A stretch of DNA of 64,000 nt from a virus: the IMG/VR virus record IMGVR_UViG_3300033148_004385, positions 1 to 64,000 of that record; one strand, written 5' to 3'. The translations under genes and the position numbers were made by a program. The notes below the pieces were generated by a model. The model searched no databases, was not told the DNA's origin, and saw only the letters and a list, made by a program, of their open reading frames with translations. Positions 46,622 through 63,983 of the stretch are shown piece after piece; within the stretch, counting starts at the first letter, position 1; the number at the start of each line of letters is the position of its first letter.

Positions 46622-47956
46622 TTATTCATTCCCTTCGGATTCTTTAGTAACCACCGGAAATGGTGGGAATATTAAACAACCGTCTGTTTCATTGTCATAA
46701 TCTATTTCATAAATTAGTGAACCCTCTTCATCCCAATGAAAACCCATTCCATGTAACAGGCCATTTTTATAATTTAATTCCGTTTTTTTATTACCATTTT
46801 CATGCCATTCAATGTGTTTACCGTGTCTTTTACCATCTTTATAACTCACTTCACTTCTCTTATTGCCATCTTCATACCAAGTGGTTAACACACCATGTTC
46901 TTTACCATCATTATAATTTATTTGTGAAGACTTCTTACCATTTTCATGATACTTTAATTGTCTACCATCTAATTTCCCATCCTTAAATTCATATTCAGAC
47001 ATTTTAGTGCCATCAGCAATATCATCTTCAATGCTATAATAATAGTGAATAGATTTACCATTTAACACATCATTCATATAATTTTCTTCTGTTTCTTTAC
47101 TTCCATCTTTATACCAAAGAAGTCTTTTACCATATTTTTTTCCAACAATATATTCAACGAAACTTCTTTTGTTGCCAGTGTTCCACCATGTACGAACAAC
47201 ACCATGTAATATATCATTTTCATAATTCTTTTCTGATATTAAAAGACCTTTTTCATATATTCTAGCTATTGTTTTAATATAATGCCATGTAGTAGATTCA
47301 CCATCTTGTTTTCCTTCCTTCCATGTAGTTTCAAATACCTTTTTACCTTCTTCATTCCAAATTACTTCATCACCATCTTTAACACCATTTACAATATAAT
47401 ATGTCTTTTTTTTAGTTCCATCACTCCAAAAATAATCAACCTGTCCATTAACTTCAATGTTATTTTCAAATTTCCTACAAAACCCTAATAAACCATTTTT
47501 ATACCAGAATTTGAATTCACCATCTACTAAACCTTTCTTGTAGTCTATTTCAGTATGTTTTGAACCATCTGAATAATATAAAATTTCTTTACCATGGAAA
47601 AAACCATCTTTGTAATCAATATCCATTTGTTTTACACCATGTTCATTAAATACTAGTTTTTTACCATCTAAAATATCATTTTTGTATGTAGCACGTTCAG
47701 ATACTCCACCACCCTGATGGTATTTAATTCTTTCACCTTCCAGTAACCCATTTTTAAACCTTGTGGTCATTTTTTTATTTCCATCTTCATACCATTCTTT
47801 ACAAACACCATGTGGTGAACCATCTTTAATAACATCTTTAAAAAAAACACCACTCTCATCATCACTTTCAATTATACCAGTGAATGGATTTTGTCTTACT
47901 TCATATATCAGACCATCTTTTTTTGTAACAACATCCTTAAAACCAACTCTTTTCAT
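46622..47956 (-). CDS. MORN_2/YwqK repeat protein, 444 aa (largest of the array)
   Basis: This is the largest intact member. It starts with an N-cap (DGLIYEVRQNPFTGII, residues 14-29) followed by about 15 repeats of 23-24 residues with core G-x4-W[YH]-x2-GNK-x3-x2-YK[DN]G. The repeat register is broken twice by insertions (near 230 and 330). Repeats of this kind form beta-solenoid surfaces. B. subtilis YwqK is annotated as the antitoxin of the YwqJ deaminase toxin, which gives the family its usual label; no YwqJ-like toxin is recognisable here. The array starts here. The aaggggtaaa site is part of a 37-base repeat shared with the next gene. Confidence 0.92.
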   Translation of the reverse strand: MKRVGFKDVVTKKDGLIYEVRQNPFTGIIESDDESGVFFKDVIKDGSPHGVCKEWYEDGNKKMTTRFKNGLLEGERIKYHQGGGVSERATYKNDILDGKKLVFNEHGVKQMDIDYKDGFFHGKEILYYSDGSKHTEIDYKKGLVDGEFKFWYKNGLLGFCRKFENNIEVNGQVDYFWSDGTKKKTYYIVNGVKDGDEVIWNEEGKKVFETTWKEGKQDGESTTWHYIKTIARIYEKGLLISEKNYENDILHGVVRTWWNTGNKRSFVEYIVGKKYGKRLLWYKDGSKETEENYMNDVLNGKSIHYYYSIEDDIADGTKMSEYEFKDGKLDGRQLKYHENGKKSSQINYNDGKEHGVLTTWYEDGNKRSEVSYKDGKRHGKHIEWHENGNKKTELNYKNGLLHGMGFHWDEEGSLIYEIDYDNETDGCLIFPPFPVVTKESEGNE

Positions 47957-47992
47957 TTTACCCCTTAAATAAAATTATTATATATGTTATTC
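47956..47992 (-). repeat. 37-base identical intergenic unit (copy 1)
   Basis: This stretch contains the ribosome site of the 444-aa gene and the stop of the next gene. It is identical, base for base, to 48610-48646. It therefore marks a recent duplication boundary between adjacent array genes. Confidence 0.9.
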
Positions 47993-48607
47993 GCCCTTAG
48001 TACCATCTTTGACTTCCGTGTAATAAACCATCTTAACACCATCTTTGTAAATCATTTCACTTTCTTTATTGCCATCTTCACCCCAAATAATATATTTTCC
48101 ATTGAGTTCACCATTTTGATATGTTTCCAAAAAATGTTTACTATCATTTTCGTACCAATGGCTCTGAATTCCATCCTTTTTTCCATCAATATAATTTTCT
48201 TCACACATTTTATCACCATTTTCCCAACATAAAATATGTTTACCATGTTTTTTTCCATTTACATAGTTTTCTTCCATATTCAAAACACCTTTTTTATTCC
48301 ACTCTAAACTACACCCATGTTCTTTTCCATCTTTATAATTATATTCAAGTCTTTTAGTTCCATCTTCATCCCATATATATTTTTTACCATTCAATTCACC
48401 ATTTTCGTAATTACATTCAGATAGTATAACACCATCTTCATACCTAGTAATTTCTTTGCCATGCCTCTTTCCATCCACATAAATTGTTTCACGTGTTCGT
48501 CCATTTTGAGCCGTATAAATACCCTTCCCAGTAAACACAAGTGGTGTCAACTCATATACCACACCATTTTCAACCACAAGATTCTTATCATCTACTACTA
48601 TTTCCAT
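47987..48607 (-). CDS. MORN_2/YwqK repeat protein, 206 aa
   Basis: N-cap NGVVYELTPLVFTGKG near residues 14-29, then about seven repeats. The C-terminus ends in a basic-acidic tail (YTEVKDGTKGE). It is bounded on both sides by the same 37-base intergenic sequence, so it is the clearest member of a tandem duplication. Confidence 0.88.
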   Translation of the reverse strand: MEIVVDDKNLVVENGVVYELTPLVFTGKGIYTAQNGRTRETIYVDGKRHGKEITRYEDGVILSECNYENGELNGKKYIWDEDGTKRLEYNYKDGKEHGCSLEWNKKGVLNMEENYVNGKKHGKHILCWENGDKMCEENYIDGKKDGIQSHWYENDSKHFLETYQNGELNGKYIIWGEDGNKESEMIYKDGVKMVYYTEVKDGTKGE

Positions 48608-48609
48608 TT

Positions 48610-48646
48610 TTTTACCCCTTAAATAAAATTATTATATATGTTATTC
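48610..48646 (-). repeat. 37-base identical intergenic unit (copy 2)
   Basis: Identical to 47956-47992. It joins the 206-aa gene's ribosome site with the end of the 225-aa gene. Confidence 0.9.
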
Positions 48647-49318
48647 ACCATCTGAAGCATCAATTAATTCACCTTGACTATACAGATAAGTTTTGATTAA
48701 TTTCCCATCAGTATCATAATTACTTTGTAGACCATCTTCAAGACCATTTTTATAAAACAATTTAATATGAAGTTCACCATTTTCATGATACCTTCTTGTT
48801 TCACCTTCCTGTACACCATTTTCATAGTTTACAATTAGATTCACATTCCCATTTTCATACCATTGTTTATATTGCCCGATTGATTTACCATTTTCATATT
48901 CTTCTTCGATGTGTCTTTTATTATTCTCAAAATTATTAAAACATTTCCCATGTTTTTTTCCATCATCATTAAATAATATTTTTCGTTCAATATTACCATC
49001 TTCATAATAATCAGTGAACTCATTAATTGGTTTGCCATCTTTATAATTATATATATATTCGACAAGACCTTCCCCATACATTCGATGTTGTCGACCATGT
49101 TTTAACCCATTTCTGTAATTTTTCTCTGATAATAAAACCCCGCCATCATTCCACTGTGAATATTTTCCATCCTTCAAACCATCTTTATAGTATTCTTCAG
49201 ATTTAATGTTGCCATCAGCGAATCTAGTTCTTAAAACACCTGTGTATGGCTTTTGGTTTATTTCATGTAATAAGCCGTCACTCATTTCTGTTAAATATTT
49301 TGGATTTCCTTCTTTCAT
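48641..49318 (-). CDS. MORN_2/YwqK repeat protein, 225 aa
   Basis: N-cap DGLLHEINQKPYTGVL near 14-29 and about eight repeats, the third and fifth drifted (RQHRMYGEG, GKCFNNFENN). It has an acidic end (LIDASDGE). A 45-base gap with a T/A-rich tract separates it from the 316-aa gene upstream; I see no clear promoter there. Confidence 0.88.
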   Translation of the reverse strand: MKEGNPKYLTEMSDGLLHEINQKPYTGVLRTRFADGNIKSEEYYKDGLKDGKYSQWNDGGVLLSEKNYRNGLKHGRQHRMYGEGLVEYIYNYKDGKPINEFTDYYEDGNIERKILFNDDGKKHGKCFNNFENNKRHIEEEYENGKSIGQYKQWYENGNVNLIVNYENGVQEGETRRYHENGELHIKLFYKNGLEDGLQSNYDTDGKLIKTYLYSQGELIDASDGE

Positions 49319-49363
49319 TTTATTCCTTATAAGTAAAATCTAATTATATTATATTTTTTATAT

Positions 49364-50314
49364 TTACCAAAATTTTCTTAAACCAAAAGAAAACCATTTT
49401 TTCCTGCGTTTTTTTTCTACATCAAATTCATAATAATCTTCATATTCTTTATTACCATTTTCATAATACACCATTGTTTTACCATGTTGTAAATTATCTT
49501 TATAATTAATTTCAAGCCAAGGGTTACCATTTCGATAGTAACTTAAATAAAGACCATCCAATTTACCATATTTATAGTTTTCTTTGCTAGATATTATTCC
49601 ATTTTCATACCAACAAAAACATTCGCCATGTCTTTCCCCATCCAAGTAATTTGAAAGAATGTGTTTATTGCCATCACGGTACCATTGTTTATATTGACCA
49701 TGATTTTCACCATTTTTATAGTCTATATCAAATTCTTTATTACCATTCCAATACCATCCTAATTCTTTACCATCTTTTTTACCATTTTTATAGTCTATTA
49801 ATCTCAATACACTTCCAAATTCATCACAAACAATATATTTCCCATGTTTCAAGCCATCTTTATAATCAACCTCAATTTCTTTATTCATCTTTCTATAATA
49901 CCATATTTCTTTACCATGTTTTTTTCCATTCTTATAATTAATTTCAACTTCTTTTTTACCACCAACACGATATGTAATACATGTTCCATCTTCATACCAC
50001 CAAAATTCCTTACCTTCTTGTAACCCATCCACAAAAAAGAGTTCATATTTTTTATTTCCATTTCTATATCTATCGATAAATTTACCATGTTTTTTATTAT
50101 ACTTGTAATTCCTTTCGGATATTATTTCACCAGTGTCATAATACCAAATTTCTTTACCATGTTCTTTCCCATCTTTGTAACTTGTCTCAACACGTTTTTC
50201 ACCACTAACAGAATTATACACAATTACACCTGTATATGGTTTTGTCGTTAATATATGTAATAAGCCATCTTTAATAACCACATTTTTACCATTATTTACA
50301 ATCTTTTCAGTCAT
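49364..50314 (-). CDS. MORN_2/YwqK repeat protein, 316 aa
   Basis: N-cap DGLLHILTTKPYTGVI near 16-31 and about eleven repeats with unusually many charged and aromatic positions. The C-terminus departs from the repeat and ends in a basic stretch (FDVEKKRRKKWFSFGLRKFW), unlike the other members; that tail could be a nucleic-acid or membrane contact. Only eight bases separate its start from the stop of the upstream 152-aa gene, so it is operonic. Confidence 0.88.
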   Translation of the reverse strand: MTEKIVNNGKNVVIKDGLLHILTTKPYTGVIVYNSVSGEKRVETSYKDGKEHGKEIWYYDTGEIISERNYKYNKKHGKFIDRYRNGNKKYELFFVDGLQEGKEFWWYEDGTCITYRVGGKKEVEINYKNGKKHGKEIWYYRKMNKEIEVDYKDGLKHGKYIVCDEFGSVLRLIDYKNGKKDGKELGWYWNGNKEFDIDYKNGENHGQYKQWYRDGNKHILSNYLDGERHGECFCWYENGIISSKENYKYGKLDGLYLSYYRNGNPWLEINYKDNLQHGKTMVYYENGNKEYEDYYEFDVEKKRRKKWFSFGLRKFW

Positions 50315-50322
50315 TATATCCC

Positions 50323-50781: not shown

Positions 50782-50804
50782 GTTTTACACCTTATCATAT
50801 TTTA

Positions 50805-51572
50805 TTATTTAATATATCCATCAACATAAACACACATATTTTTTTTTCTTCCATCTTTATAATATTCAATGCTATCACCATGGAAATAACCATCTTTATG
50901 ATTACGTTCATATCGTATATTACCATTCTCAAAAAATTCTAATTCTTTACCGTGTTTATCCCCATCTTTATAATTACATTCATATCTTTTCTTACCATTT
51001 TCATACCATTCACTATCGTTACCATGAAATTTATCATCCTTATAATTTGCAACACATTTTATATTCCCGTAATAATACCATTTTATTTCTTTACCGTGTC
51101 GTTTACCCTCATTATAATTTCGTTCTAATTCCTTGTTTCCATTCTCATGCCATCTTGTTTGAAGCCCATGCGACAAACAACCCTTATAATTAAATTTGCA
51201 GTGGCTACCACCATTTTTATAAAACCAAAGTTCTACACCATCCAATTTACCATTAACATATGATGAATCAATTTTTATATTTCCATTTTCCCACCATACA
51301 ATATGTTTACCATTTACTACACCATTATCAAAATTAGTTTCAGATTCTTTATTTCCATTATCATACCATTTCGTATATTTACCATCAAATTCGCCATCTT
51401 TAAATATAACCTCATATTTCACTTTACCATTCTCATAAAAACTTTTAAATTTTCCATTTCTCAAACCATTTTTATAACTACCATCTTCACCCACAACATT
51501 AATTGCTTGACCTGTATATGTAATTTCTTTTAGTTCATAAAATTTACCGTTATATTCTGCAACTATTTTCAT
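50805..51572 (-). CDS. MORN_2/YwqK repeat protein, 255 aa
   Basis: N-cap NGKFYELKEITYTGQA near 8-23, then about ten repeats. It ends with KNMCVYVDGYIK, a complete last repeat. It is coupled to the upstream gene through a TAATG overlap at 51572-51574. Confidence 0.88.
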   Translation of the reverse strand: MKIVAEYNGKFYELKEITYTGQAINVVGEDGSYKNGLRNGKFKSFYENGKVKYEVIFKDGEFDGKYTKWYDNGNKESETNFDNGVVNGKHIVWWENGNIKIDSSYVNGKLDGVELWFYKNGGSHCKFNYKGCLSHGLQTRWHENGNKELERNYNEGKRHGKEIKWYYYGNIKCVANYKDDKFHGNDSEWYENGKKRYECNYKDGDKHGKELEFFENGNIRYERNHKDGYFHGDSIEYYKDGRKKNMCVYVDGYIK

Positions 51573-52396
51573 TATAACACCTCACCATTTTTATATTCAT
51601 ATTCACATTCTTTCTTACCATTTCTATACCACCAAGTTTGTATACCATGTTTTTTTCCATTTACATAGTTTTCTTCTACATCTATTTTACCATTTCTATA
51701 CCACCATGTTTCTTTACCATGTTTTAAACCATTTTTATAATTTGTTTCTATGTATTTGCAGCCATTATTATACCACTGAATTTGAAGACCATGTTTTTCA
51801 TCATTTACATAATTTGTTTCACATTCTTTCTCACCATTTCTATACCATTCTGTGTGTCTGAAATCCCCATTACCATCAGTATAGTATAAGTCTTTTTTAT
51901 TACCATCCATATAAAAGACTATTTTTTCACCGATATGTTTATCATTCACATAACATGATACCATCTTGATTTCACCGTTTTCATGCCACCAAATTTCTTT
52001 ACCCTCTTGTATGCCAGATTTATAATTTCGTTCTATATATTTATTCCCATTTTCATACCAAGTTTCATGTGTTCCATTTTTATCATCATCTAAATATGGG
52101 ATTTTTTCATGAATTGCACCACTTTTGTGATATGTATTAATATAACCATCCCTTTTACCATTTACATAATCACATTCATAACTTCTGTTGCCATTTTCAT
52201 GCCACCAAATTTCTTTACCGTGTCTTTTACCATTTTCATATTTTATATTAAATTTCATCCCACCAGAAGGGAATTTTTCAATAATACTTCCTGTAAATAT
52301 TTCACGTTTTTTTAATGTATATAAAATACCACCTAATTTAAATACATCTTTTTTATATAAAATATTATCTGTTTTAAGATTGTTTTTGACACTCAA
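51572..52396 (-). CDS. MORN_2/YwqK repeat protein, 274 aa, TTG start
   Basis: N-cap GGILYTLKKREIFTGSI near 22-38 and about ten repeats, including a nearly perfect run GKETWWYRNGK...GIQTWWYRNGK at the end. The frame opens at TTG 52396, six bases after GGGGG; no ATG is available near the N-cap, so a TTG start is likely. A TATAAT lies upstream on the minus strand, without a good -35. Confidence 0.82.
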   Translation of the reverse strand: MSVKNNLKTDNILYKKDVFKLGGILYTLKKREIFTGSIIEKFPSGGMKFNIKYENGKRHGKEIWWHENGNRSYECDYVNGKRDGYINTYHKSGAIHEKIPYLDDDKNGTHETWYENGNKYIERNYKSGIQEGKEIWWHENGEIKMVSCYVNDKHIGEKIVFYMDGNKKDLYYTDGNGDFRHTEWYRNGEKECETNYVNDEKHGLQIQWYNNGCKYIETNYKNGLKHGKETWWYRNGKIDVEENYVNGKKHGIQTWWYRNGKKECEYEYKNGEVL

Positions 52397-52969: not shown

Positions 52970-52978
52970 TTTAATCTC

Positions 52979-53767
52979 CTATAAACTATAATTTTTCTTG
53001 CCATTTTCATAATAAAAAAGACTTTTTGTTTTCCCATCTTCATACCAAGACATATAATCACCATTTAATACACCCTTTTTGTAATTCATTTCTTTTTTCC
53101 TATTCCCATTTTCATGATATAAATTAACCTTCCCAATTGGCATATCATTTCTATAATTAGTTTCACTTTTTTTGTTACCATTACTAAACCAAATAATTTC
53201 TTTACCATTTAATCTATCATTTCTATAATTCGCCTTACTTTTTTTCTTACCATCTTTATACCATTCTTTTTGAACACCATGCAATAAACCATTTTCATGG
53301 TTATTTTCACTTTTGATGTTTCCATCTTCATACCAACGAATTTCTTTACCATATTTATTATTGTTTTTTAAGTTACACTCACATTTTTTATTACCATTTT
53401 CATACCAATGTGTGTGTTTATTATTATAATTTATTTCACGTCTTTTATTTCCATTTTCATCCCACTCAATAAGTATGCCATCTAATTTACCATCAGCATA
53501 AAACATTTGCGTTTGTTTCCCACCATTATCAAACCATTTAGTGTATTCACCATGTTGTTTTCCATTCTTATAATTAATTTCATATTCTTTTTTACCATTT
53601 TCATCATAATGAATGTTTTTACCATGTATTAAACCATTTTTATAAACCCCTTCACTAATTATTTTATCATCATATTGTCTAATGACAACCCCAGTGTAAC
53701 CACTGTTTTTTATTTCGTATAATACACCGTTTTTTATCACACAATTGTCGAAATCAGTTTTATTCAT
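52979..53767 (-). CDS. MORN_2/YwqK repeat protein, 262 aa
   Basis: Starts at ATG 53767 behind ataggggatatt; longer frames upstream are rejected. N-cap NGVLYEIKNSGYTGVV near 12-27 and about ten repeats, one of which lost a turn (TNYNNKHTHWYENGNKK region is shortened). It has its own early promoter and 5' hairpin at 53784-53836 and heads the transcript that includes the decayed gene. Confidence 0.88.
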   Translation of the reverse strand: MNKTDFDNCVIKNGVLYEIKNSGYTGVVIRQYDDKIISEGVYKNGLIHGKNIHYDENGKKEYEINYKNGKQHGEYTKWFDNGGKQTQMFYADGKLDGILIEWDENGNKRREINYNNKHTHWYENGNKKCECNLKNNNKYGKEIRWYEDGNIKSENNHENGLLHGVQKEWYKDGKKKSKANYRNDRLNGKEIIWFSNGNKKSETNYRNDMPIGKVNLYHENGNRKKEMNYKKGVLNGDYMSWYEDGKTKSLFYYENGKKNYSL

Positions 53768-53783
53768 AATATCCCCTATAAAT

Positions 53784-53836
53784 AGTGACTTGATTATCAC
53801 TTATTGATATTATACAGATTTTTTTGGGATTGTTAA
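53784..53836 (-). promoter_or_regulatory. Early promoter and 5'-terminal hairpin
   Basis: Minus strand TTAACA (53831-53836) and TATAAT (53809-53814), spacer 16. AGTGA (53797-53801) pairs with TCACT (53784-53788) around TAATCAAG, right at the predicted start. The ribosome site follows. Confidence 0.78.
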
Positions 53837-53854: not shown

Positions 53855-54418
53855 TTAAGATTCTTTAATTTTAACACCATTTTCGTATAGTGTTTCTGAT
53901 TCTTTATTGCCATCTTCATCCCACCAAATTTCTTTACCATGCTTTTTTCCATTTACATACGTTGTTTCACAAGCTTTAGTGCCATCTTCATAAAACATTT
54001 GACTTAAACCATGAGGTAAATCGTTTTTATGTGTAAGAATATGTTTTTTTCCTTTATCCCCATCTTTATAATATTTAACCATAATACCATCTGATTTTCC
54101 ATTCTTAAAATTATATTCTCTTATTAAGCTTCCGTCCCATTCCCATTCAGTATATTTACCATGATATTCACCATCTTTATAATTAGTTTCTTCTGAAACC
54201 ACACCTTTTTCATAACAATGGTATTTTATGCATTTACCATCTTTCAACCCATTCTTGAAGTTATATATACTTCTAATTTCACCATCATCAGCAGCATCTT
54301 CATCATCCCAACGCCTTATTATTGACCCTGTATAACCTTTTTGTTGTCTTTCGTATATAACACCACCTTTTACAACAAAGTCGCTAAATTCGCTTGATTT
54401 ACTGTTTTCATTACTCAT
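53855..54418 (-). CDS. MORN_2/YwqK repeat protein, 187 aa
   Basis: N-cap GGVIYERQQKGYTGSI near 18-33 followed by RRWDDEDAADDGEI, an acidic insertion, then about six repeats ending in a strong GKEIWWDEDGNKESE repeat. Promoter and conserved leader at 54425-54489 make it a separately started early unit. Confidence 0.88.
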   Translation of the reverse strand: MSNENSKSSEFSDFVVKGGVIYERQQKGYTGSIIRRWDDEDAADDGEIRSIYNFKNGLKDGKCIKYHCYEKGVVSEETNYKDGEYHGKYTEWEWDGSLIREYNFKNGKSDGIMVKYYKDGDKGKKHILTHKNDLPHGLSQMFYEDGTKACETTYVNGKKHGKEIWWDEDGNKESETLYENGVKIKES

Positions 54419-54497: not shown

Positions 54498-54980
54498 TTA
54501 CTTTTTATTATTATCTTTTAATATTTCATCATTTTCCCAAAATTCTTTAAATTCGATACTACCATCTTCATGGTATCTAATATATTCACCATCTTTTAAA
54601 CCATCTTTGTAATTACATTCTGTTTCTTTATTCCCATTTTCATGCCATCTTATATACTTACCATTTATACCATCATTTACAAGAGTACACTCAACTTTTT
54701 TATTACCATTTTCATAAAAAGATTTTAATTGACCATTTAATAAATCGTCTTTGTAATAAGCGATTCTTTTTATTGCACCATTTAGGTGATATTCAATATA
54801 TTTCCCTTCTAATTTTCCATCCTTGTACTGCTGTATTGAAAACAAAAGATTGTTATTTAACCATGTGGTATATTTGCCATCCAACTTCCAGTTAAGAAGT
54901 GTGTAATCAGTTTTTTTATTCTCATGTTCTTCATCAAAAAAAGTAGTGATGTGAACTTTGTTAAGATTATCTTTACGCAT
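54498..54980 (-). CDS. MORN_2/YwqK repeat protein, 160 aa, no N-cap
   Basis: ATG 54980, overlapping the end of the upstream gene, behind ttggggctta. No Y-x-TG cap is seen; it begins RKDNLNKVHITTFFDEEHENKK, then DGKYTTW starts about five repeats. The lack of a cap, with a shared TLLN/TLVN motif also seen in the 249-aa gene, suggests a subgroup. Confidence 0.82.
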   Translation of the reverse strand: MRKDNLNKVHITTFFDEEHENKKTDYTLLNWKLDGKYTTWLNNNLLFSIQQYKDGKLEGKYIEYHLNGAIKRIAYYKDDLLNGQLKSFYENGNKKVECTLVNDGINGKYIRWHENGNKETECNYKDGLKDGEYIRYHEDGSIEFKEFWENDEILKDNNKK

Positions 54981-55557
54981 AATTAAGCCCCAAATTAAAT
55001 GATATAATTTCTTTACCATCTTTGTAGTATTTTTCTAATTTTTTATTACCATCTTCATCCCACCAAATTTGTAAACCATCTTCTTCACCATCTTTATAAT
55101 TTATTTCCAGTTTTTTATTACCATTCTCATACCACCATGTTTTCTTACCATGTTCTTTCCCATCTTTGTAATTTGTTTCTATATATTTATTTCCATTTTT
55201 GTACCAATCAATTTGTAAACCATCTTGTTTCCCATCTTTATAATTTTCTTCAGATTTGTTATTACCATTTTTAAACCATTCAGCTTGTTTACCTACCAAA
55301 ACATCATTTAAATAATCCCTTTCCAGTTTCTTTACCCCATTACTAAACCAAACAATTTCTTTCCCATGTTTAAGACCATCTTTATAATTTTCTTCACTTT
55401 CTTTTTGGGTTTCCATTGAAAAATAATATTCAATCCATAAGCCATGTTTTAAACCATTTTTAATGTAACCAGTTGTATATTTCTCATTAACTTCACCTGT
55501 AAATGGTTTTTCTTTTAATTCATAAAATTTTCCATCATCAACTGCTATTCTACACAT
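54973..55557 (-). CDS. MORN_2/YwqK repeat protein, 194 aa
   Basis: ATG 55557 behind acaggaggatatt. N-cap DGKFYELKEKPFTGEV near 7-22 and about seven well-preserved repeats (YKDGKEHGKKTWWYENGNKK). It has its own early promoter and a perfect 5' hairpin at 55575-55591. Confidence 0.88.
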   Translation of the reverse strand: MCRIAVDDGKFYELKEKPFTGEVNEKYTTGYIKNGLKHGLWIEYYFSMETQKESEENYKDGLKHGKEIVWFSNGVKKLERDYLNDVLVGKQAEWFKNGNNKSEENYKDGKQDGLQIDWYKNGNKYIETNYKDGKEHGKKTWWYENGNKKLEINYKDGEEDGLQIWWDEDGNKKLEKYYKDGKEIISFNLGLNYA

Positions 55558-55574
55558 AATATCCTCCTGTGAAT

Positions 55575-55629
55575 GGTGGTATAATACCACCTATATAATA
55601 CATTGTATATTTAAAAATTAATTTGTCAA
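55575..55629 (-). promoter_or_regulatory. Early promoter and perfect 5'-terminal hairpin
   Basis: Minus strand TTGACA (55624-55629) and TACAAT (55602-55607), spacer 16. The leader hairpin GGTGGTATTATACCACC (55575-55591) is a perfect 7-bp stem with a 3-base loop, beginning about four bases after the expected start. AGGAGG and ATG follow. Confidence 0.85.
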
Positions 55630-55633: not shown

Positions 55634-56383
55634 TTATACTATGATATCATCTAAATATTCATATTCATATTGTTTACTTCCATCTTTGTAGAACCAAACA
55701 CATGCACCATGTTTTTTATCATCTTTATAATTTAATTCGTATTGTTTGTTACCATTATCATACCACCCTAATATAACACCCTCTTGTTTGTCGTCATTTA
55801 AAAAACCTTTGTATTCCAACTCACCATTTTTATGCCATCTTAAAGTGATACCATATACTATACCATTTTTTGTGTTTACTTCGTGTTTTTTATTCCCATT
55901 TTTATAAAACATTTTTTGAATACCATCAGCTAAACCCCTTTTATAAAACTCTATAAATTCAGTGTTACCATTTTCATACCATGTTATTAACTCAAAATCA
56001 CTCTTATTGTTTTTATTTTTATAGAAAACTTCAGATTTCCTTTTACCACTTCTATACCAACTTTTTAAATCTAAAAGAGCACATGAAATACCAATTCTTT
56101 TTTTGTTACCATTATCCCACCATTCACAAAACTCACCACGTTTTTTACCATTCACAAAATTATAAACACTTCTTTTATTACCCTTTTTATACCAATAGGT
56201 TCGTTTACCATTTAATTTACCATATTGATAATATTCTTCATAATACAAAACATTGTTGTATTTCCATTTTGTATATTTGCCTTCACGTTTATAATTAACA
56301 AGTGTGCATTCCGATTTCTTGTTAAAATCATCATAATAATTTATAATTTCACGTGTATTTGTGTTGTCTATCTTTCTATCCAT
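55634..56383 (-). CDS. MORN_2/YwqK repeat protein, 249 aa, no N-cap
   Basis: ATG 56383 behind aaggggtgtgaaa; the first ten residues of the longest frame are not needed. It lacks the usual cap and begins MDRKIDNTNTREIINYYDDF, then enters repeats at KREGKYTKW. About nine repeats, with one interrupted by a Cys/Trp insertion (ISCALLDLKSWYRSGK). It ends YEYLDDIIV. Confidence 0.83.
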   Translation of the reverse strand: MDRKIDNTNTREIINYYDDFNKKSECTLVNYKREGKYTKWKYNNVLYYEEYYQYGKLNGKRTYWYKKGNKRSVYNFVNGKKRGEFCEWWDNGNKKRIGISCALLDLKSWYRSGKRKSEVFYKNKNNKSDFELITWYENGNTEFIEFYKRGLADGIQKMFYKNGNKKHEVNTKNGIVYGITLRWHKNGELEYKGFLNDDKQEGVILGWYDNGNKQYELNYKDDKKHGACVWFYKDGSKQYEYEYLDDIIV

Positions 56384-56837
56384 TTTCACACCCCTTTTTA
56401 AGTAAACCACCATCTTTATAATAATATTTTACTACTTCCTTACCACTTTTATCCCAATGTATTTCTTCCCCATCTTTTAAACCAAATACATAATTTCGTT
56501 CTATATGTTTACCACCATTTTCATACCAAATAAATTCATAACCATTTTTAAAATAATTAAGATAATTTCTTTTTATATGAATATCCCCATTTTTATGCCA
56601 ATAAGTTTGTTCACCATTTCGTTTACCATTTTCGTAATTACATTCTTTATATCTTTTACCATTTTCATACCAATGAATTTCTTTACCATGTTTTTTACCA
56701 TCTACATAATCTATCTCACAAAATTTATTACCATCATCATATAAATCGACAAACTTACCAGTAAATGGGTTTTCTTTTAATTCATACATTAAACCACCCT
56801 TCAACCCAGTGTTCTCATAATTGACAACATTTTCCAT
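56376..56837 (-). CDS. MORN_2/YwqK repeat protein, 153 aa
   Basis: N-cap GGLMYELKENPFTGKF near 14-29, followed by VDLYDDGNK, then about five repeats. The cap is nearly the same as that of the 121-aa member at 58102 (LAYELKQEPFTGKFIDLYD). It is last in the transcript containing the DUF262 and BspA-type genes. Confidence 0.87.
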   Translation of the reverse strand: MENVVNYENTGLKGGLMYELKENPFTGKFVDLYDDGNKFCEIDYVDGKKHGKEIHWYENGKRYKECNYENGKRNGEQTYWHKNGDIHIKRNYLNYFKNGYEFIWYENGGKHIERNYVFGLKDGEEIHWDKSGKEVVKYYYKDGGLLKKGCENG

Positions 56838-56847: not shown

Positions 56848-57387
56848 TCATAATATATTACCTAACATTTTTTTTACCCTAATGTGTTTCTTTACATCCC
56901 AGTTACTTAAATCTTGTTTAAAGGATTTTGCATTTAAAAACATCCATTCCATATAAATTACATTGCTAACATTCCAACCACCAATATCACTATTAAAAGA
57001 ATCAGTATCCTTAAACATAGCAGTCATATCATAAACATTACTCACATCCCATTTACTTAAATCACCATTAAAAGAAGTAGCACCATAAAACATACTATTC
57101 ATATTGGTAGCACCACTTACATCCCAATTACTTATATCACAATCAAAAGTATTTGCATCCATAAACATATGACTCATGTTGTGAAGTTTTGATACATCCC
57201 AATCACTGATGTTTATGTTAGGGTATTTCTTGAAAATATTATTAATACCCAATGTGTCACCTTTGTTTTGATATCGTTGTACTTTTTTTGTTAAAAAACC
57301 TGTACGATAATCGGTAACAAATAAAGATTTAAGAAAATCACGAATTATTAATTTTCCGTTACTAAATTCTACTTGATATTTCATCAT
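56848..57387 (-). CDS. BspA-type (DUF285) repeat protein, 179 aa
   Basis: Residues 52-170 hold about five BspA/DUF285 repeats (WDVS[KN]-[LV]-x2-M-x2-MF-x-[DG]A-x-[TS]F-x-D[IL]S-x-W). The entry KKYPNINISDWDVSKLHNM parallels the 37736 paralog. The N-terminal 50 residues differ. It is coupled by ATGA to the DUF262 gene, so the two are probably made together; a role as a partner is inferred. Confidence 0.85.
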   Translation of the reverse strand: MMKYQVEFSNGKLIIRDFLKSLFVTDYRTGFLTKKVQRYQNKGDTLGINNIFKKYPNINISDWDVSKLHNMSHMFMDANTFDCDISNWDVSGATNMNSMFYGATSFNGDLSKWDVSNVYDMTAMFKDTDSFNSDIGGWNVSNVIYMEWMFLNAKSFKQDLSNWDVKKHIRVKKMLGNIL

Positions 57388-58031
57388 AAAGTTATATCAT
57401 CAATCAAAAATCTATTTAATAATATAGATATATCATCATATATAGAAAGAATGTCATTAGAATCTTTTTTAACATCTACTGCTACAAGATTTAATGTTCT
57501 ATTATTAAATAATCTCTTTATGTCATCACCAAAAGCCTGGTAGCTAATAACTACATTTTTATCATTATTTAAATCTAAATAAGAGAATTCTTTAAACTCT
57601 AAACCAAAAGAATTTTCTAATTTCACCTCTATTTCTTTCTTTTCTTTTTGTGATTTACTGCTTCCATGTTTATCAATTAATTCACTAATTACATCAAATT
57701 TATAATAAAATGTTCTGTGTATTGATATAGGAAATACACCTTTCATAAAAAAGAATAAATATACAATCCTTTGTTGTCCATTAATAATATTATATCTATA
57801 ATCATTTATATTATAATACATATAAATGCTTGGGATTGGTATATTTTTTAGTAATGATACAACCAAATAGATTACAATTTTCTCTTCCCATACATATTTT
57901 TTTTGATGTTTTGGTATAAAATATGTACCTGAAGACATTCTGTCTATGATTGTATCAATTGGTGTCTTTGAGTCACTATATCCAATATCAGCATTCATTA
58001 AATCACCTATATTAACACTTTTATTTTTCAT
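57384..58031 (-). CDS. Standalone DUF262 domain protein
   Basis: A 215-aa protein. The DUF262 signature IPKHQKKYVWEE at 39-50 and SLLKNIPIPSIYMYY near 59-73 leads to INGQQRIVYLFF at 83-94, the NGQQR ParB/Srx-like nucleotide-binding core. DUF262 is the N-terminal domain of GmrS-type and related anti-phage nucleases, where it hydrolyses NTP. Those proteins are about 500-700 aa with a nuclease part (DUF1524 or others), but here nothing follows the N-terminal domain. It could be a regulator, decoy or inhibitor of host DUF262 nucleases, or a relic. Confidence 0.8.
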   Translation of the reverse strand: MKNKSVNIGDLMNADIGYSDSKTPIDTIIDRMSSGTYFIPKHQKKYVWEEKIVIYLVVSLLKNIPIPSIYMYYNINDYRYNIINGQQRIVYLFFFMKGVFPISIHRTFYYKFDVISELIDKHGSSKSQKEKKEIEVKLENSFGLEFKEFSYLDLNNDKNVVISYQAFGDDIKRLFNNRTLNLVAVDVKKDSNDILSIYDDISILLNRFLIDDITL

Positions 58032-58101: not shown

Positions 58102-58467
58102 CTAACCACCACATTTAAAACCATTTTTATAATCTATTTCACTTTTTTTATTGCCATTTTTATACCATTTAGTTTCCTTACCATTTAATTCACCATTTAA
58201 ATAAAATCTCTCAAATACTTTACACCCATTATCATAATACAATATTTCTTTCCCATGTTTTTCACCATTTTTATAATCCACACTTTTTTGTTTATTCCCA
58301 GTATAACCCCATAATATACAAATACCATGTTTTATGCCACTTTCGTATTCTATTTCATGATGTTTATTACCCTTATCATATAAATCAATGAATTTACCAG
58401 TAAAAGGTTCTTGTTTTAATTCATATGCTAAACCGTTGTGTTCGCCTATTTTATCAGTTGTTGTCAT
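58102..58467 (-). CDS. MORN_2/YwqK repeat protein, 121 aa (shortest)
   Basis: N-cap NGLAYELKQEPFTGKF near 11-26, then IDLYDKGNK and about four repeats, ending FKCGG. Own early promoter and hairpin at 58487-58535. It is the smallest intact capped member, which marks the minimal unit of the family. Confidence 0.87.
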   Translation of the reverse strand: MTTTDKIGEHNGLAYELKQEPFTGKFIDLYDKGNKHHEIEYESGIKHGICILWGYTGNKQKSVDYKNGEKHGKEILYYDNGCKVFERFYLNGELNGKETKWYKNGNKKSEIDYKNGFKCGG

Positions 58468-58486
58468 AATATGCTCCTATAAAAAC

Positions 58487-58535
58487 AACAAAATCATTGT
58501 TATAATACTATATCATTTGTTTATTATTTTGTCAA
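58487..58535 (-). promoter_or_regulatory. Early promoter and 5'-terminal hairpin
   Basis: Minus strand TTGACA (58530-58535) and TATAGT (58507-58512), spacer 17. AACAA (58497-58501) pairs with TTGTT (58487-58491) around a 5-base loop at the predicted start. Confidence 0.78.
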
Positions 58536-58572
58536 TTTGAAAGATTATTTTACTGAAGATGTCTTTTTATAT

Positions 58573-58938
58573 TCATTTTTTACACAAAACATTTTTTAAT
58601 GTTTTAATGACAGACTCTTTAACTATATCAATGTTATCAACCATAGTTTTTGTCTTTGGGTTTTCAGAAATAAGACCAATGCTACCATCATTATAATATT
58701 CTAAATAAACAATTTTATATGTATTGCGAAAGACTAAACAAACCCCTTCATCAGCAGAAGTAGTAACACGAAACGGTATTAATTTATTAGAAACAAATTC
58801 AGGTATCATTTTTCTTAAACCATCTAAAATTTCTTTAGATGGTTTTTCACCCATTTCTTCATGTGGGTAATTACCACCAGATAACCAATTTTCTAAATCA
58901 TCAATTTTTTTTAATAATATTTCATTAAAATCAATCAT
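58573..58938 (-). CDS. Unknown protein inside the array
   Basis: A 121-aa protein starting at ATG 58938, which overlaps the previous gene's end. It is not a repeat protein: helical N-terminus with GGNYPHEEMGEKPS near 21-34, then TTSADEGVCLVF and VYLEYYNDGSIGLI, a strand pattern like small bacterial proteins that pair with toxin or defence genes. No known domain can be assigned. Confidence 0.72.
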   Translation of the reverse strand: MIDFNEILLKKIDDLENWLSGGNYPHEEMGEKPSKEILDGLRKMIPEFVSNKLIPFRVTTSADEGVCLVFRNTYKIVYLEYYNDGSIGLISENPKTKTMVDNIDIVKESVIKTLKNVLCKK

Positions 58939-60058
58939 CACCAATTATTTCCCCATTTTTATATTCTTTTTTATATTCTACTTCCCCATATCTCCAAGTA
59001 CTTTGAATACCATCTTTTCTATCATTCACATAATCTACTTCGGATTCTTTTTTACCATCTTCATACCAAGTTTCAAATTTACCATGTTTATCACCATTTT
59101 TATAATTTAATTCACATTCTTTATTACCATTTTCATACCATTCTGTATATTTACCATCCAAACAACCTTTCACATAGTTTCGTTCATATTTTTTATTACC
59201 ATTTCTATGCCACACAGTATATTTACCTTCGTATCCATCGTGACCACGAAAACCCTTACACTCAATTTTACCATTTAAATAATACCAACTTAAAGAACCA
59301 AATCTTTTACCAAAATTATAATTTACTTCAGATTCTTTTTCACCATTATCATACCACTTTGTTTGTTTACCATCCTTATCACCATCTTTATAATTATATT
59401 CTAACTCTTTTTTACCATTACTATACCAAATTATTGTTGTACCATGTTCTTTTCCATTCACATAATTCCCATCACGTCTTTTATTTCCATTTCCCCACCA
59501 TTCAATATATTTCCCATTTTCTTTACCATTTTTATAATGTATTTCATATTCTTTACGACCACTATCATACCATTTTATTTCTAAGCCATGTATTAAACCA
59601 TCTTTATGGTAAAGTTCATTTTTTATGTGTCCACTCTCATACCACCATGTTTCTTTACCATTTAATTCACCATCAATATAATTTTTTTCTACGTTTTTTT
59701 TACCATTTTCATACCAATAAATTTCTTTACCGTGTTTCATTCCATTCTTAAAATTAAGTTCAACCATTTTTTGACCACGACCATAATATTGTGTATATTT
59801 ACCATGTTTCAAACCATCCTTGTAATATACCTCCATTTTTATTACATCACCAGGATATTCATGATATTCAATAAGTACACCAGTAAATGGTTTGGGTTCT
59901 AAACTATACATTATATCATCAATTTGAATTGGTTTTTTTTTAGTTTTATATTCGTTAATGTGTATAATATTATTGCATCCATTTTTTTTATATTCATTTG
60001 TTGGTGTTATTGCATGTGTTAAACCATTAATTTCTATAATTTTATTTGTAATTTTCAT
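58931..60058 (-). CDS. MORN_2/YwqK repeat protein, 375 aa, duplicated N-terminal region
   Basis: It begins with an extra 40-residue part (INGLTHAITPTNEYKKNG then HINEYKTKKKP), followed by the canonical cap DDIMYSLEPKPFTGVL near 47-62 and about twelve repeats with one Cys/Gly-rich drifted unit (KGFRGHDGYEGK). The two-part start (INGLTHAITP, then the true cap) suggests a fusion of two cap-type starts. Confidence 0.88.
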   Translation of the reverse strand: MKITNKIIEINGLTHAITPTNEYKKNGCNNIIHINEYKTKKKPIQIDDIMYSLEPKPFTGVLIEYHEYPGDVIKMEVYYKDGLKHGKYTQYYGRGQKMVELNFKNGMKHGKEIYWYENGKKNVEKNYIDGELNGKETWWYESGHIKNELYHKDGLIHGLEIKWYDSGRKEYEIHYKNGKENGKYIEWWGNGNKRRDGNYVNGKEHGTTIIWYSNGKKELEYNYKDGDKDGKQTKWYDNGEKESEVNYNFGKRFGSLSWYYLNGKIECKGFRGHDGYEGKYTVWHRNGNKKYERNYVKGCLDGKYTEWYENGNKECELNYKNGDKHGKFETWYEDGKKESEVDYVNDRKDGIQSTWRYGEVEYKKEYKNGEIIGDD

Positions 60059-60068
60059 AGTCTCTACC

Positions 60069-60974
60069 CTATTTTATATAGCCATATTCATATGTTCCTT
60101 TCTCACAAATAGAACCATCTTGATTATAAATTGTATATTCTCCGTTTTCTAAACCTTTTTCATAATACCGTTCATTTTTTTTATCACCATTTTCATACCA
60201 TTTTGTTTGTTTACCATGTTTATTTCCATCTACATAATCTACTTCACTTTTTTTATTTCCGTTTTCATCCCAAATACTCTCTAAACCATTTGATTTGCCA
60301 TCAACAAAATTTCTTTCCCAATGTTTTACACCATTTTCATGCCACCTCTTTTCTTTACCGTTTAATTTACCATTTTCGTAAACCTCTTCACTCATTTTCT
60401 TTTTAAGCGAATACGAAAACCAAACAATCTTTTTCCCGTGTCTCTGACCATTTTTATAATTAGTTGTTATATGTTGTGTACCATCAGGTGAAACATCAAT
60501 CATAATACCATGTATTTGACCATTTTCATAGTTTATTACAGTACTTTCGCCACCACTTGGGTAATAAGAAATGCTCTTACCATGTTCTTTCCCATCTACA
60601 TAATCTATATCATGGCTTTTACTTCCATTTTTCCACCATAAAATATGTTTACCATTTAATACACCATTATCAAAATCACTTTCAGATTGTTTATTACCAT
60701 TTTCATACCATTTAGTTTGTTTACCATTTTCTTTACCATTTGTATAATTTAATTCAATTTTCTTTTGTCCATTTTTATGCCATTCTGTGTGTTTGCCATT
60801 TAAAACACCATCTTTATAATTAGTATTATATTTCATAGAACCATCTTTACGGTATTCAATTTCAACCCCATCTAACACACCATCTTTATAATTACTTCGT
60901 TTTTTTACATTACCATTTTTTTTATATGTTTCTATTAATTCACCATTTACTGGAACACCATTTAATTTAATCAT
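60069..60974 (-). CDS. MORN_2/YwqK repeat protein, 301 aa
   Basis: ATG 60974 with a TAATG overlap to the previous gene. A reduced cap (LNGVPVNGELIETYKKNGN) precedes about twelve repeats, with one insertion that changes register (PSGGESTVINYENG region). It ends KGTYEYGYIK. Confidence 0.86.
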   Translation of the reverse strand: MIKLNGVPVNGELIETYKKNGNVKKRSNYKDGVLDGVEIEYRKDGSMKYNTNYKDGVLNGKHTEWHKNGQKKIELNYTNGKENGKQTKWYENGNKQSESDFDNGVLNGKHILWWKNGSKSHDIDYVDGKEHGKSISYYPSGGESTVINYENGQIHGIMIDVSPDGTQHITTNYKNGQRHGKKIVWFSYSLKKKMSEEVYENGKLNGKEKRWHENGVKHWERNFVDGKSNGLESIWDENGNKKSEVDYVDGNKHGKQTKWYENGDKKNERYYEKGLENGEYTIYNQDGSICEKGTYEYGYIK

Positions 60975-61843
60975 TATTTTACCCACCACTTTATATCGCC
61001 ATCTCTTTTACCATCTTTATAATTTTCTTCACAAGCTTTTTTTCCACTATCATGCCACCAAATTTCTTTACCATTTTTTTTACCATCTTTATGATTTGTA
61101 TTTGATTCGATTTTACCATTAGGATGCCAAGTAAAACCGAAACCCTGCATATCACCATCTTCATATTCTGATTCTAATTGCTTATTACCATTAGGATAAA
61201 ACCTAGTAAATGTACCATGTAATTGACCGTTTTTATACATCTTATAGCTTTTTTTCTCACCACCCTGATACCAAGACATAGAAACACCATCTTGTACACC
61301 ATCCTTAACATTTATTTCCATTGATTTAATACCATTTTCATACCAGATAGTTTCTTTACCATTTATTTTATTATCTATATAAGTTAATTCCCTTTCTTTA
61401 TTTCCATTTTCATGATATTTAATTTGTTTTCCATGCAGAATGTGACATTTTTTATAATTATATTCACTTTGGATATTGCCATTTTCATACCAGATTGTTT
61501 CTAATCCATCCATAACATCATTTAGATAATTTGTTTCCTTTCTTTTTTTACCATTACTATACCATATTGTATATAACCCATTTTTTTTACCATTCTCATA
61601 ACTTACTTCTATCCATTTCTTTCCATTTTCATTCCACCATGTTTCTTTACCATGTTCTTTCCCATCTTTGTAATCAACTACATTGTATATCTCACCTTCA
61701 TCATTATAATTGGTAATTTTCCCATGTAGCTTTCCATCCTTAATAAAACCTTTAATTTTATTATTTTTAATTTCACCTGTATAGGGTTTAATCATAACTT
61801 GACGATAAACCCCACCAACAAAACACACTTTCATTTCATCCAT
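60974..61843 (-). CDS. MORN_2/YwqK repeat protein, 289 aa
   Basis: Cap GGVYRQVMIKPYTGEI near 10-25, then about eleven repeats. One lies across an insertion KKCHILHGKQ. It has a ggggtaaaat ribosome site. The last repeats GKEIWWHDSGKKACEENYKDGKRDG lead to a short WWVK tail. Confidence 0.88.
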   Translation of the reverse strand: MDEMKVCFVGGVYRQVMIKPYTGEIKNNKIKGFIKDGKLHGKITNYNDEGEIYNVVDYKDGKEHGKETWWNENGKKWIEVSYENGKKNGLYTIWYSNGKKRKETNYLNDVMDGLETIWYENGNIQSEYNYKKCHILHGKQIKYHENGNKERELTYIDNKINGKETIWYENGIKSMEINVKDGVQDGVSMSWYQGGEKKSYKMYKNGQLHGTFTRFYPNGNKQLESEYEDGDMQGFGFTWHPNGKIESNTNHKDGKKNGKEIWWHDSGKKACEENYKDGKRDGDIKWWVK

Positions 61844-61846
61844 ATT

Positions 61847-62299
61847 TTACCCCTGTTTTAATATTAATATAAAAAAATTATTTTCTTTTAGGAATTCAGA
61901 ATATTCACTCAAATTATAAATACCATTTCTATAACGCATTTCATTAAGTAATTCTTTATTAGCTAAATAATTGTTATATGCATCATTCAAATACGTTTTA
62001 AAATCATCCAAAATCCCTACCTCATTGTGACCAAAAACTACTAAATCATAACCATCAATCTCACCAAACAATTCACCAGTTTCATACCCTGATATTTTAA
62101 GTTCTAATTTATTTTTTAATTTTATATTAGAAATTGAGTCTATATATAATATTGTTTCTTGTGGTTTGGCAAGACAACCCCTAGAATTTAAATTCGCTTC
62201 CATTGCTAAAATTAATTTATGAATAGAATAAAAAACAACTGCTAATGGTAATGATAATAAACCCCAAACCACAAGGCTTTCCAATTGAGATTGAGTCAT
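61847..62299 (-). CDS. Membrane-anchored unknown protein
   Basis: A 150-aa non-repeat protein. One N-terminal membrane segment (residues 8-32, SLVVWGLLSLPLAVVFYSIH) then a soluble domain with ETGELFGEIDGYDLVVFGHNE. It starts as ATGA overlap with the frameshifted repeat gene, so it belongs to the same transcript. Function unknown. Confidence 0.7.
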   Translation of the reverse strand: MTQSQLESLVVWGLLSLPLAVVFYSIHKLILAMEANLNSRGCLAKPQETILYIDSISNIKLKNKLELKISGYETGELFGEIDGYDLVVFGHNEVGILDDFKTYLNDAYNNYLANKELLNEMRYRNGIYNLSEYSEFLKENNFFILILKQG

Positions 62300-63073
62300 A
62301 TTTTTTCACCCTTAATATATTCACTAATATTTTTTATTTCACCATTTTCATGCCATTCTGTATATTTACCATGAAGTATACACTTCTTAAAATTCCGTTC
62401 AAATCTTTTATTTCCATTCTCATACCAAGCAATTTGAATACCATCTTCTACATCATTCACATAATTTGTTTCAGATTGTTTATTTCCATTCTTATACCAA
62501 TAAGTATGAACACCATACCTATTACCATTTTCATACTGCAATTCACATTTTATCTTGCCATCATAATACCATCTTATTTCTTTACCATTTTTTTTACCAG
62601 CTTCATAGTTTATTTCATTTTCTTTATTTCCATTCTCATACCAAAGAAAAGATTTCCCAATCGGCTTGGCGTTTTCGTAAATTGATTCAAAACTTTTCTT
62701 ACCATTTTCATGCCATTCAGAGTGTTTACCATGTCTTTTACCATGCTTATAAAATATTTCAGTTTGTTTATTGCCATTATGATACCACCAAGTTTGTATA
62801 CCATGGCTTTCCCCATTCTCGTTATTTAATTCATATAGTTTACTACCATATTCGTTCCATTCAATTTCAACCCCATGTAGTAACCCATCTTTATAAGTTT
62901 CTTCTGATGCTTTATCACCATTTTTATGCCAAAAAAACTCTTTACCATCTTTTTTTCCATCTTTATAGTTTATTTCCCATTCTTTTCTCCCATTCTTATT
63001 GTAATAAACCTCTTTACCATTTTTTTTTTTCGGCTAAATAACCACCTTCTGGTATTAAATTGTTTTTACACAT
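62296..63073 (-). pseudogene. MORN_2/YwqK repeat gene with an A11 homopolymer frameshift
   Basis: ATG 63073 with aaaggagaaat opens MCKNNLIPEGGYLAE and reads into an 11-A run (63020-63030 on the minus strand); the frame then gives Lys-Lys-Lys-Trp-stop. The next frame is open from just after a TAG to 62296 and carries about ten repeats (KNGKEVYYNKNGRKEW onward) without any ATG near its start. Removing one A (or adding two) joins them exactly. So the gene is either phase-variable, recently broken, or a homopolymer sequencing error. Its promoter is at 63097-63150. Confidence 0.82.
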
Positions 63074-63096
63074 AGATTTCTCCTTTGAAAATAAAT

Positions 63097-63150
63097 AATT
63101 GCATAATTACAACCACAATTTATTATATATTTTATTTCATATTTTGTCAA
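63097..63150 (-). promoter_or_regulatory. Early promoter of the frameshifted repeat gene
   Basis: Minus strand TTGACA (63145-63150) and TATAAT (63122-63127), spacer 17: a full consensus. The leader contains AATTG/CAATT or TAATT/AATTA pairings (63096-63120); several alternatives are similarly weak. Confidence 0.85.
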
Positions 63151-63188
63151 TTACTTTTATGATTTCATTTATTAAGAGAAAAGAAATA

Positions 63189-63983
63189 TTAAATATCCAT
63201 TTCCATAGCAATTTCAGCACTTCCCACATTAACTTTTTTTAAATGTTTATTTATTATAACCTTACGCTCATGTGTATATTTTGCAATTTGAAGACCATGT
63301 TTTTTTCCATTTTTGTAATTACAGGTGGTTTTCAATTTTTCAAATAATGACATACCATCATCGGGTATAAAATCGTAAATTTCTACCTTAAATCTGTGAA
63401 CACCAGTAACCCATTTGGTATAGAGACCCTCTATTAATCCATTATTATAAAAACATTCAATATCAAGTTCCTTATATCTATCATGCTTTTTGTATTCACC
63501 ATGTAATAGCCCCTGTTTATATGTTGTCTTAACATCTATTCTTCCGTTTTCATGCCAAGATTTATATTCACCATGTCTTTTCCCATTTTCATATCTGACA
63601 TCTGATTTCTTTTGTCCACTCACATACCAAAAGAAAGATTTTCCATGTGGTTTATTATTTTTAAATTCCTGAATGGATTTTAACTTATCATTTTCATAAC
63701 GTAATATTGACACCCCATCTTTTTTATTGTTTTTATATTCAATATTTGAAATCATTACATTATTGTCATCCCATTCAATTTGTTTACCATGTAATTTCCC
63801 ATATTTGAACATTTTCTCTGTTTTTAATAGCCCATTTTTACAATATTTCTCTTGCCGTCCATGTAATTTATTATTTTTAAAATTTTGAATTAAATTTCTT
63901 TCACCATTTTTGAAATTCCTAATAATCCTTATACCACCATCTTCATGATATAATTCATCGAAAAAAATGTTTTCTTCAATCAT
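63189..63983 (-). CDS. MORN_2/YwqK repeat protein, 264 aa
   Basis: The first member at the right edge of the window, starting MIEENIFFDELYHEDGGIR without the usual cap, behind tggggcaaac. About nine repeats; a long drifted insert near residues 170-215 (DRYKELDIECFYNNGLIEG and VTGVHRFKVEIYDF). It ends NVGSAEIAMEMDI, unlike other members. Upstream sequence is cut off by the window end. Confidence 0.85.
   Translation of the reverse strand: MIEENIFFDELYHEDGGIRIIRNFKNGERNLIQNFKNNKLHGRQEKYCKNGLLKTEKMFKYGKLHGKQIEWDDNNVMISNIEYKNNKKDGVSILRYENDKLKSIQEFKNNKPHGKSFFWYVSGQKKSDVRYENGKRHGEYKSWHENGRIDVKTTYKQGLLHGEYKKHDRYKELDIECFYNNGLIEGLYTKWVTGVHRFKVEIYDFIPDDGMSLFEKLKTTCNYKNGKKHGLQIAKYTHERKVIINKHLKKVNVGSAEIAMEMDI

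Follow-up and report, generated by a model that had tools for sequence, protein, structure and literature searches.

Why a phage should carry some twenty versions of one repeat gene side by side is the question raised by the stretch of DNA analysed here, 64,000 nucleotides from the 74,258-base virus record IMGVR_UViG_3300033148_004385 (positions 1 to 64,000, hereafter the window). The element under study is an array of MORN_2 (PF07661) genes on the minus strand of the interval 46622–63983, of which 18 are intact and 2 are broken. The array was found to be a genuine feature of the phage genome, and similar repeat units were found to be shared among its genes one at a time and without collinearity. 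As a tentative reading, to which somewhat less than even confidence is given, we propose that the products are soluble MORN_2 binders, probably made early, whose units are exchangeable and whose targets would be host proteins.

The array as part of a phage genome

Minus-strand open reading frames (ORFs) and Pfam scans confirmed the family of about 20 paralogous leftward MORN_2 genes that an initial annotation, made from the sequence alone, had described. The repeat is 24 residues long and the genes are tightly spaced, with small gaps or overlapping ORFs (gaps total 662 of 17,362 bases, 3.8%). The Pfam gathering score for MORN_2 (29.6 bits) was passed by all four proteins scanned out of the 18 intact ones, with 78.5, 89.4, 94.9 and 45.7 bits. 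The profile search with PF07661 that had been suggested in the annotation gave 88 matches in the 74-kb contig at E ≤ 0.001 (150 of 157 candidates scored) and none in 14 control genomes; relatives were found in few phages and were widespread in bacteria. Family scans also bore out the four interrupting genes, namely a DUF285 (BspA-type) gene, a GmrSD_N (DUF262) gene and two without a confident family.

The array was recovered a second time in a sister record, IMGVR_UViG_3300033153_007754 (153,500 bases), with phage genes on both sides. Sister record and window contig were 99.99% identical over the 20.8 kb compared (three mismatches), and a second stretch of 11.5 kb showed two mismatches and one gap. 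The two ends of the sister record overlap by about 114 bases of the window contig, and the 153.5-kb record is therefore probably a complete circular map. All 18 intact array genes are open in it, 17 of them with an identical protein, and the frameshifted gene is intact, which brings the open genes of the interval to 19 of 20 there. In the nonsense gene (about 52430–52970) the open remainder of 117 aa is identical in both records. The homopolymer of the frameshifted gene (about 62296–63080) exceeds every other A or T run of the 74-kb contig in length; the frameshift differs between the two records and may represent phase variation, a population variant or a sequencing error.

The initial annotation had allowed for an array of the host chromosome joined to phage DNA by mis-assembly. 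This is refuted by the second assembly: the array, with phage genes on either side, is present in two assemblies that are not identical, which rules out a phage/host chimera. Six further MORN-like genes lie beyond the interval, three along the contig (Table 1) and three elsewhere in the sister record, where a 353-aa MORN-like ORF stayed under the Pfam cut-off (15.6 against 29.6 bits). The extended array is interspersed with a radical-SAM-like ORF, a late sigma factor, an exonuclease and a gp30.3-like gene. In total about 18 kb of the 153-kb genome belong to one repeat family (hand sum of ORF lengths, broken genes included).

The assignment to a T4-like phage was upheld by genes for replication, head, tail and late transcription, i.e. 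late sigma factor and exonuclease (both by PHROGs), clamp loader, SSB, head protease and tail sheath, and by tblastn matches of the gp23-like protein in 2,457 and of the terminase in 2,523 phage records. Pattern scans of IMG/VR with single proteins returned the sister record only (clamp loader), the same phage in three samples only (gp23), and the same phage with 15 relatives at 22–25% identity (terminase); the best terminase matches in the phage collection were 33–35% identical. Judged by its sequences, the phage is a deeply divergent member of the T4-like group. Samples 3300033141 and 3300033148 yielded fragments of this phage. No tRNA genes were found in the window or in the other pieces scanned.

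Probable exchange of repeat units between genes

For the comparison of units, 163 repeats were cut from 22 genes, using a profile that favours structural positions. There were 57 pairs with at least 75% DNA identity, whereas 300 shuffles which preserve the codons of each column gave 5.1 on average and 18 at most. The best matches of adjacent units were collinear in 1 of 128 cases (null 0.9) and fell in one gene in 10 of 128 (null 9.1). Units of the same gene were 0.545 identical and units of different genes 0.539, and the unit pairs flanking the 57 similar pairs averaged 0.584 versus 0.553 overall. For 25 of 32 shared tracts, which had been chosen as maxima, lengths were 60–119 bases at 80–88% identity, and their full 72-base flanks had 19–48 bases in common. 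Furthermore, the upstream spacers of two neighbouring genes are near-identical (39 of 42 bases). Each similar unit is thus shared singly, and the units appear to act as one shuffled pool; this agrees with duplication and a subsequent exchange of repeats, one at a time, between genes.

Diversifying selection, which had been invoked to explain the size of the family, was unsupported in unit pairs and in six long tracts. The pooled ratio of nonsynonymous to synonymous changes (dN/dS, Nei–Gojobori counts) was 0.76 for unit pairs of at least 75% identity (52 between-gene pairs), 0.77, 0.83 and 0.88 in the lower identity bands (400 sampled pairs for each of the last two) and 0.67 for the six long tracts; these pairs are non-independent and selected by identity, and their synonymous sites are partly saturated. 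Two of the six tracts taken singly gave 1.20 and 1.33, from 13 and 17 changes, respectively. We read the values as weak constraint. The fold itself would be under selection, because the G, W, Y and G positions are conserved (G 0.90, G 0.94, Y 0.79 and W 0.62 over the 163 profile-picked units) and the frames are open.

Pooled ratios near 0.7–0.9 are also what would be seen if the repeats merely multiplied by recombination, at little benefit, and filled genome space. The gene with a stop in both records, the duplicated spacer and the mosaicism at the level of units agree with such an expansion. Against it, 18 of the 20 genes of the interval, and 19 of 20 in the sister record, have stayed open despite heavy divergence, and structural positions are conserved across the units, though these were profile-picked. 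On balance this explanation is considered unlikely.

Sequence features and predicted fold

Export signals are predicted to be lacking: hydropathy maxima were too low for a usual signal peptide or membrane helix in all 25 proteins. An N-terminal cap, read by eye as [ND]G-x-x-[YH]-E-x4-[FY]-T-G, is common to many array proteins. Isoelectric points range from 5.1 to 9.6 across the 25 proteins; DNA mimicry is not suggested, since acidity is not uniform.

The 255-aa paralog, the only one modelled, was predicted by AF2 from a 21-sequence alignment as a row of strands, with a mean predicted local distance difference test (pLDDT) score of 92.7. Comparison with the PDB using Foldseek and VIA-align placed parasite MORN1 first (Z 14.0–15.2; root-mean-square deviation 6.2–6.7 over 195–210 residues), and junctophilin-2 with a CaV1.1 peptide (Z 12.5) and MORN4/Myo3a (Z 10.1) were among the further matches. 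Engineered OspA (Z 12.6) and TCP10 domains (Z 12.3) matched as well, and part of the structural similarity is therefore general shape. For this paralog a MORN-type β-hairpin row is predicted, and by analogy with the MORN4/Myo3a and junctophilin–peptide complexes such rows can bind proteins.

Binding could also take place outside the cytoplasm, if the proteins were adhesins on the virion or the cell surface, e.g. tail-fibre-like or superinfection-blocking binders. The NCBIfam model of the LIC20035 adhesin (NF033566) matched 21 of 21 proteins weakly (best E-value 1.8e-21), and excerpts from PMC12940168 describe Fusobacterium MORN2 proteins that mostly carry signal sequences and are linked to adhesion. 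The member given, however, scored 37.9 bits against a curated cut-off of 250, so that the match probably reflects the shared repeat. Adhesins are very doubtful in view of this score, of the hydropathy result and of the late motif, which precedes none of 20 MORN ORFs, though about one would be expected.

Promoters and timing of expression

Sigma70-like sites were scored out of 12 by consensus match alone. The four best minus-strand sites in 46000–64000 (12, 11, 11 and 11 of 12) are all intergenic and within the array (Table 1). As a control, a zone of 120 bases upstream and 30 bases inside each ORF was screened (ORFs of at least 90 aa, starts as first listed). Sites of at least 11 of 12 preceded 3 of 20 intact MORN ORFs versus 14 of 157 other phage ORFs, and sites of at least 10 of 12 preceded 8 of 20 versus 33 of 157; the frameshifted gene with the 12-of-12 site was not counted among the MORN ORFs bearing a site. 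An earlier, cruder promoter pattern had given 1 of 20 versus 17 of 160 (hand count). Comparable sites precede other ORFs, so that as evidence of early timing they do not single out the array. In bulk, 184 promoter-like sites were found versus 143.5 (standard deviation 13.0) in shuffles; plus-strand sites recur inside the repeats (most of those listed) and probably arise from the repeat sequence itself.

The late motif TATAAATA occurred 35 times in the window versus 30.7 expected, i.e. without overall excess. A T4-type late motif 30–46 bases upstream was found for 7 of 160 non-MORN ORFs and 0 of 20 MORN ORFs, in a count where ORFs in overlaps between pieces enter twice and two of the seven are adjacent sites of one divergent gap. 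About one would be expected among 20 MORN ORFs, so its absence is weak evidence. Of the claim that the array uses early and not late promoters, the strong sigma70-like sites in the array gaps remain, whereas their restriction to the array and the argument from missing late motifs do not. Early expression of the array from host-type promoters is probable, supported but not proved by these sites.

Proposed function

The array would encode a large set of soluble, probably cytoplasmic MORN_2 β-hairpin repeat proteins, probably produced early from host-type promoters. Each protein would form a row of hairpins of about 24 residues and thus offer a long binding surface. Single repeats would be copied and swapped between genes, which would give each gene its own mix. 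The likeliest use would be to bind proteins of the host, for example defence effectors, toxins or further targets of the takeover, and then to neutralise or redirect them, and many copies might be kept because the targets are many or variable. Of the proposals in the initial annotation, the one of a family of binding surfaces agrees best with the data. Within the array and close to it there are two GmrSD_N genes with matches to PADLOC defence models, in line with an anti-defence purpose.

The same proposals included an arsenal of YwqK-type antitoxins or immunity proteins, in the strict form of which each protein would neutralise a specific toxin of the host or of a rival phage. Bacterial relatives are annotated as YwqK family antitoxin, excerpts from PMC8321402 give Bacillus ywqJ–ywqK as a putative pair of polymorphic toxin and antitoxin, and the early-type promoters of the array would suit such a role. 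The YwqK label is, however, database naming. PADLOC gave no match for the one MORN protein scanned, and no NCBIfam antitoxin model matched at E 0.01 among 21 proteins. No toxin-like family was found in the four interrupting and two left-flanking genes scanned, though a phage antitoxin could still act on host toxins. Taken together, an arsenal in this strict form is quite unlikely.

Several observations weigh against soluble early binders of host proteins as well. The missing toxin partner is one of them, as is the promoter control given above. Saturation could account for part of the missing collinearity, mean unit identity being 54%. The pooled dN/dS of 0.67–0.88 is below 1, so that neither diversifying selection nor an arms race is seen. 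Among the best PDB matches, many come from MORN rows of eukaryotic structural assemblies, e.g. radial spokes, and by that analogy a scaffold role is possible. Finally, a host was not found: the TnpB-like gene (24422–26041) matches only distant phage and plasmid genes, and the pattern scans with clamp loader, gp23 and terminase likewise gave no host link.

In an extended form of the binder proposal, the phage would possess an evolvable library, in which units are swapped among about 25 genes, the homopolymer may switch one gene on and off, and new surfaces arise against variable host defence. The library would then be the viral counterpart of a recombining receptor repertoire. This extension is considered unlikely at present.

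Relatives and comparable systems

A tblastn search with one paralog gave matches in 3 of 50,697 phage records, including a Helicobacter equorum prophage. In IMG/VR, a scan with short repeat patterns, which may miss relatives, found three other contigs. When 14 records were searched with MORN_2, many of them short fragments, five had matches: the three contigs known from the repeat, a terminase relative whose only match was weak, and a fragment of this phage. The repeat is widespread in genomes of bacteria and archaea (best 80 of 116 relatives), and it is related bacterial proteins that bear the YwqK family antitoxin annotation. Among the matches listed in a BFVD search, 18 of 50 were Orpheovirus proteins and two named ones came from phages. 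No paper describing such an array was found in the literature on MORN proteins and phages, with subscription journals and preprints mostly uncovered.

The three contigs (IMG/VR 3300037809_000382, 3300032138_000524 and 3300037635_004823) resemble the array in having MORN_2-like ORFs in tandem or nearly so, no more than about 10 kb from a T4-type clamp loader; they differ in number, with two to four such genes each versus about 25 here, and in their weaker MORN_2 scores, none above the Pfam cut-off. The 33-kb H. equorum prophage (BK070118) likewise has MORN_2 genes side by side (33 matches), with only a few genes between them and the integrase, but there are three of them and their repeats are more uniform by eye. 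Fusobacterium genomes share the high number of MORN_2 matches (61 in the F. vincentii record), whereas the genes are bacterial and, as excerpted above, their products mostly carry signal sequences.

Giant viruses also hold many divergent MORN paralogs per virus, but infect eukaryotes. Orpheovirus has 55 MORN-repeat sequences (PMC5786535), and in marseilleviruses MORN proteins rank among the most abundant paralogous families (PMC8208085); the passages used of these papers do not state an arrangement in a single array. YwqK and Cj0424 are bacterial proteins with MORN-type repeats. According to an excerpt from PMC6024767, the Campylobacter operon cj0423–cj0425, which contains the YwqK-like Cj0424, is the most upregulated of the host on infection by a T4-like phage, and pull-down with recombinant Cj0424 gave 93 proteins in an excerpt from PMC11595200. 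These systems differ from the array in that Cj0424 belongs to a three-gene operon and YwqK is named together with the toxin YwqJ.

Features of the array and other genes of the phage

Coordinates of the array genes, the promoter-like sites and the MORN_2 genes past the window are collected in Table 1.

Table 1 Array genes, sigma70-like sites and further MORN_2 genes on the contig (positions 1 to 64,000 are the window)
Position	Strand	Feature	Evidence or remark
46622..47956	-	MORN_2 protein, 444 aa	Pfam 78.5 bits, cut-off 29.6
47987..48607	-	MORN_2 protein, 206 aa	Upstream spacer near-identical to that of gene at 46622
48641..49318	-	MORN_2 protein, 225 aa	
49364..50314	-	MORN_2 protein, 316 aa	
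50323..50781	-	MORN_2 protein, 152 aa	
50805..51572	-	MORN_2 protein, 255 aa	Paralog modelled, pLDDT 92.7
51572..52396	-	MORN_2 protein, 274 aa	
52430..52970 (about)	-	MORN_2 pseudogene, first repeat interrupted by in-frame stop	Same open remainder in sister record
52979..53800	-	MORN_2 protein, 273 aa as listed	True start probably further in
53809..53836	-	Sigma70-like promoter, 11 of 12	Consensus match
53855..54418	-	MORN_2 protein, 187 aa	
54498..55019	-	MORN_2 protein, 173 aa as listed	
54973..55590	-	MORN_2 protein, 205 aa as listed	
55602..55629	-	Sigma70-like promoter, 11 of 12	Consensus match
55634..56413	-	MORN_2 protein, 259 aa as listed	
56376..56837	-	MORN_2 protein, 153 aa	
56848..57387	-	DUF285 (BspA-type) gene within array	E 1.6e-50
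57384..58031	-	GmrSD_N (DUF262) gene within array	Domain scan; C-terminal nuclease domain without match
58102..58467	-	MORN_2 protein, 121 aa	
58507..58535	-	Sigma70-like promoter, 11 of 12	Consensus match
58573..58944	-	Gene without confident family, within array	
58931..60058	-	MORN_2 protein, 375 aa	Pfam 94.9 bits
60069..60989	-	MORN_2 protein, 306 aa as listed	
60974..61843	-	MORN_2 protein, 289 aa	
61847..62299	-	Gene without confident family, within array	
62296..63080 (about)	-	MORN_2 gene, frameshift in homopolymer run near start	258-aa copy intact in sister record
63122..63150	-	Sigma70-like promoter, 12 of 12, before frameshifted gene	Consensus match
63189..63983	-	MORN_2 protein, 264 aa	Pfam 45.7 bits
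64993..65853	-	MORN_2 gene past window	
68077..68556	+	MORN_2 gene past window	
69493..69774	-	MORN_2 gene past window	

The two GmrSD_N ORFs (57384–58031 and L009:7436–8029) are about 200 aa long and their C-terminal part is without a match; they are possibly inhibitors of GmrSD-type restriction. The radical-SAM-like ORF of the extended array (L009:1009–1983) gave a weak Pfam match (20.1 bits, cut-off 29.5). The DUF285 (BspA-type) genes, two in number (37736–38503 and 56848–57387), represent another repeat family in the same phage. For the TnpB-like ORF, the distant matches were the only ones obtained.

PADLOC reported a Type IV-like CRISPR effector module at L019:12090–15966 (sister record 128,090–131,966). 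It comprises Cas6, Csf1/Cas8, Csf2/Cas7 with a Cas11-like N-terminal part and Csf3/Cas5, as well as a protein that matches BrxP/DndC models and is CysH-like by our reading. A direct-repeat search of L019:10500–18000 detected no CRISPR-like array.

Significance

The array is an extreme form of the small MORN_2 clusters and expansions already known, and in a phage it parallels the MORN expansion of Orpheovirus. In a marine study, MORN-repeat proteins were 37 times higher in the long-read viral set than in assemblies (excerpt from PMC9238414), and such arrays may therefore be undercounted. Should the products bind defence factors of the host, the array would provide new inhibitors as well as a tractable example of how repeats are shuffled in a phage.

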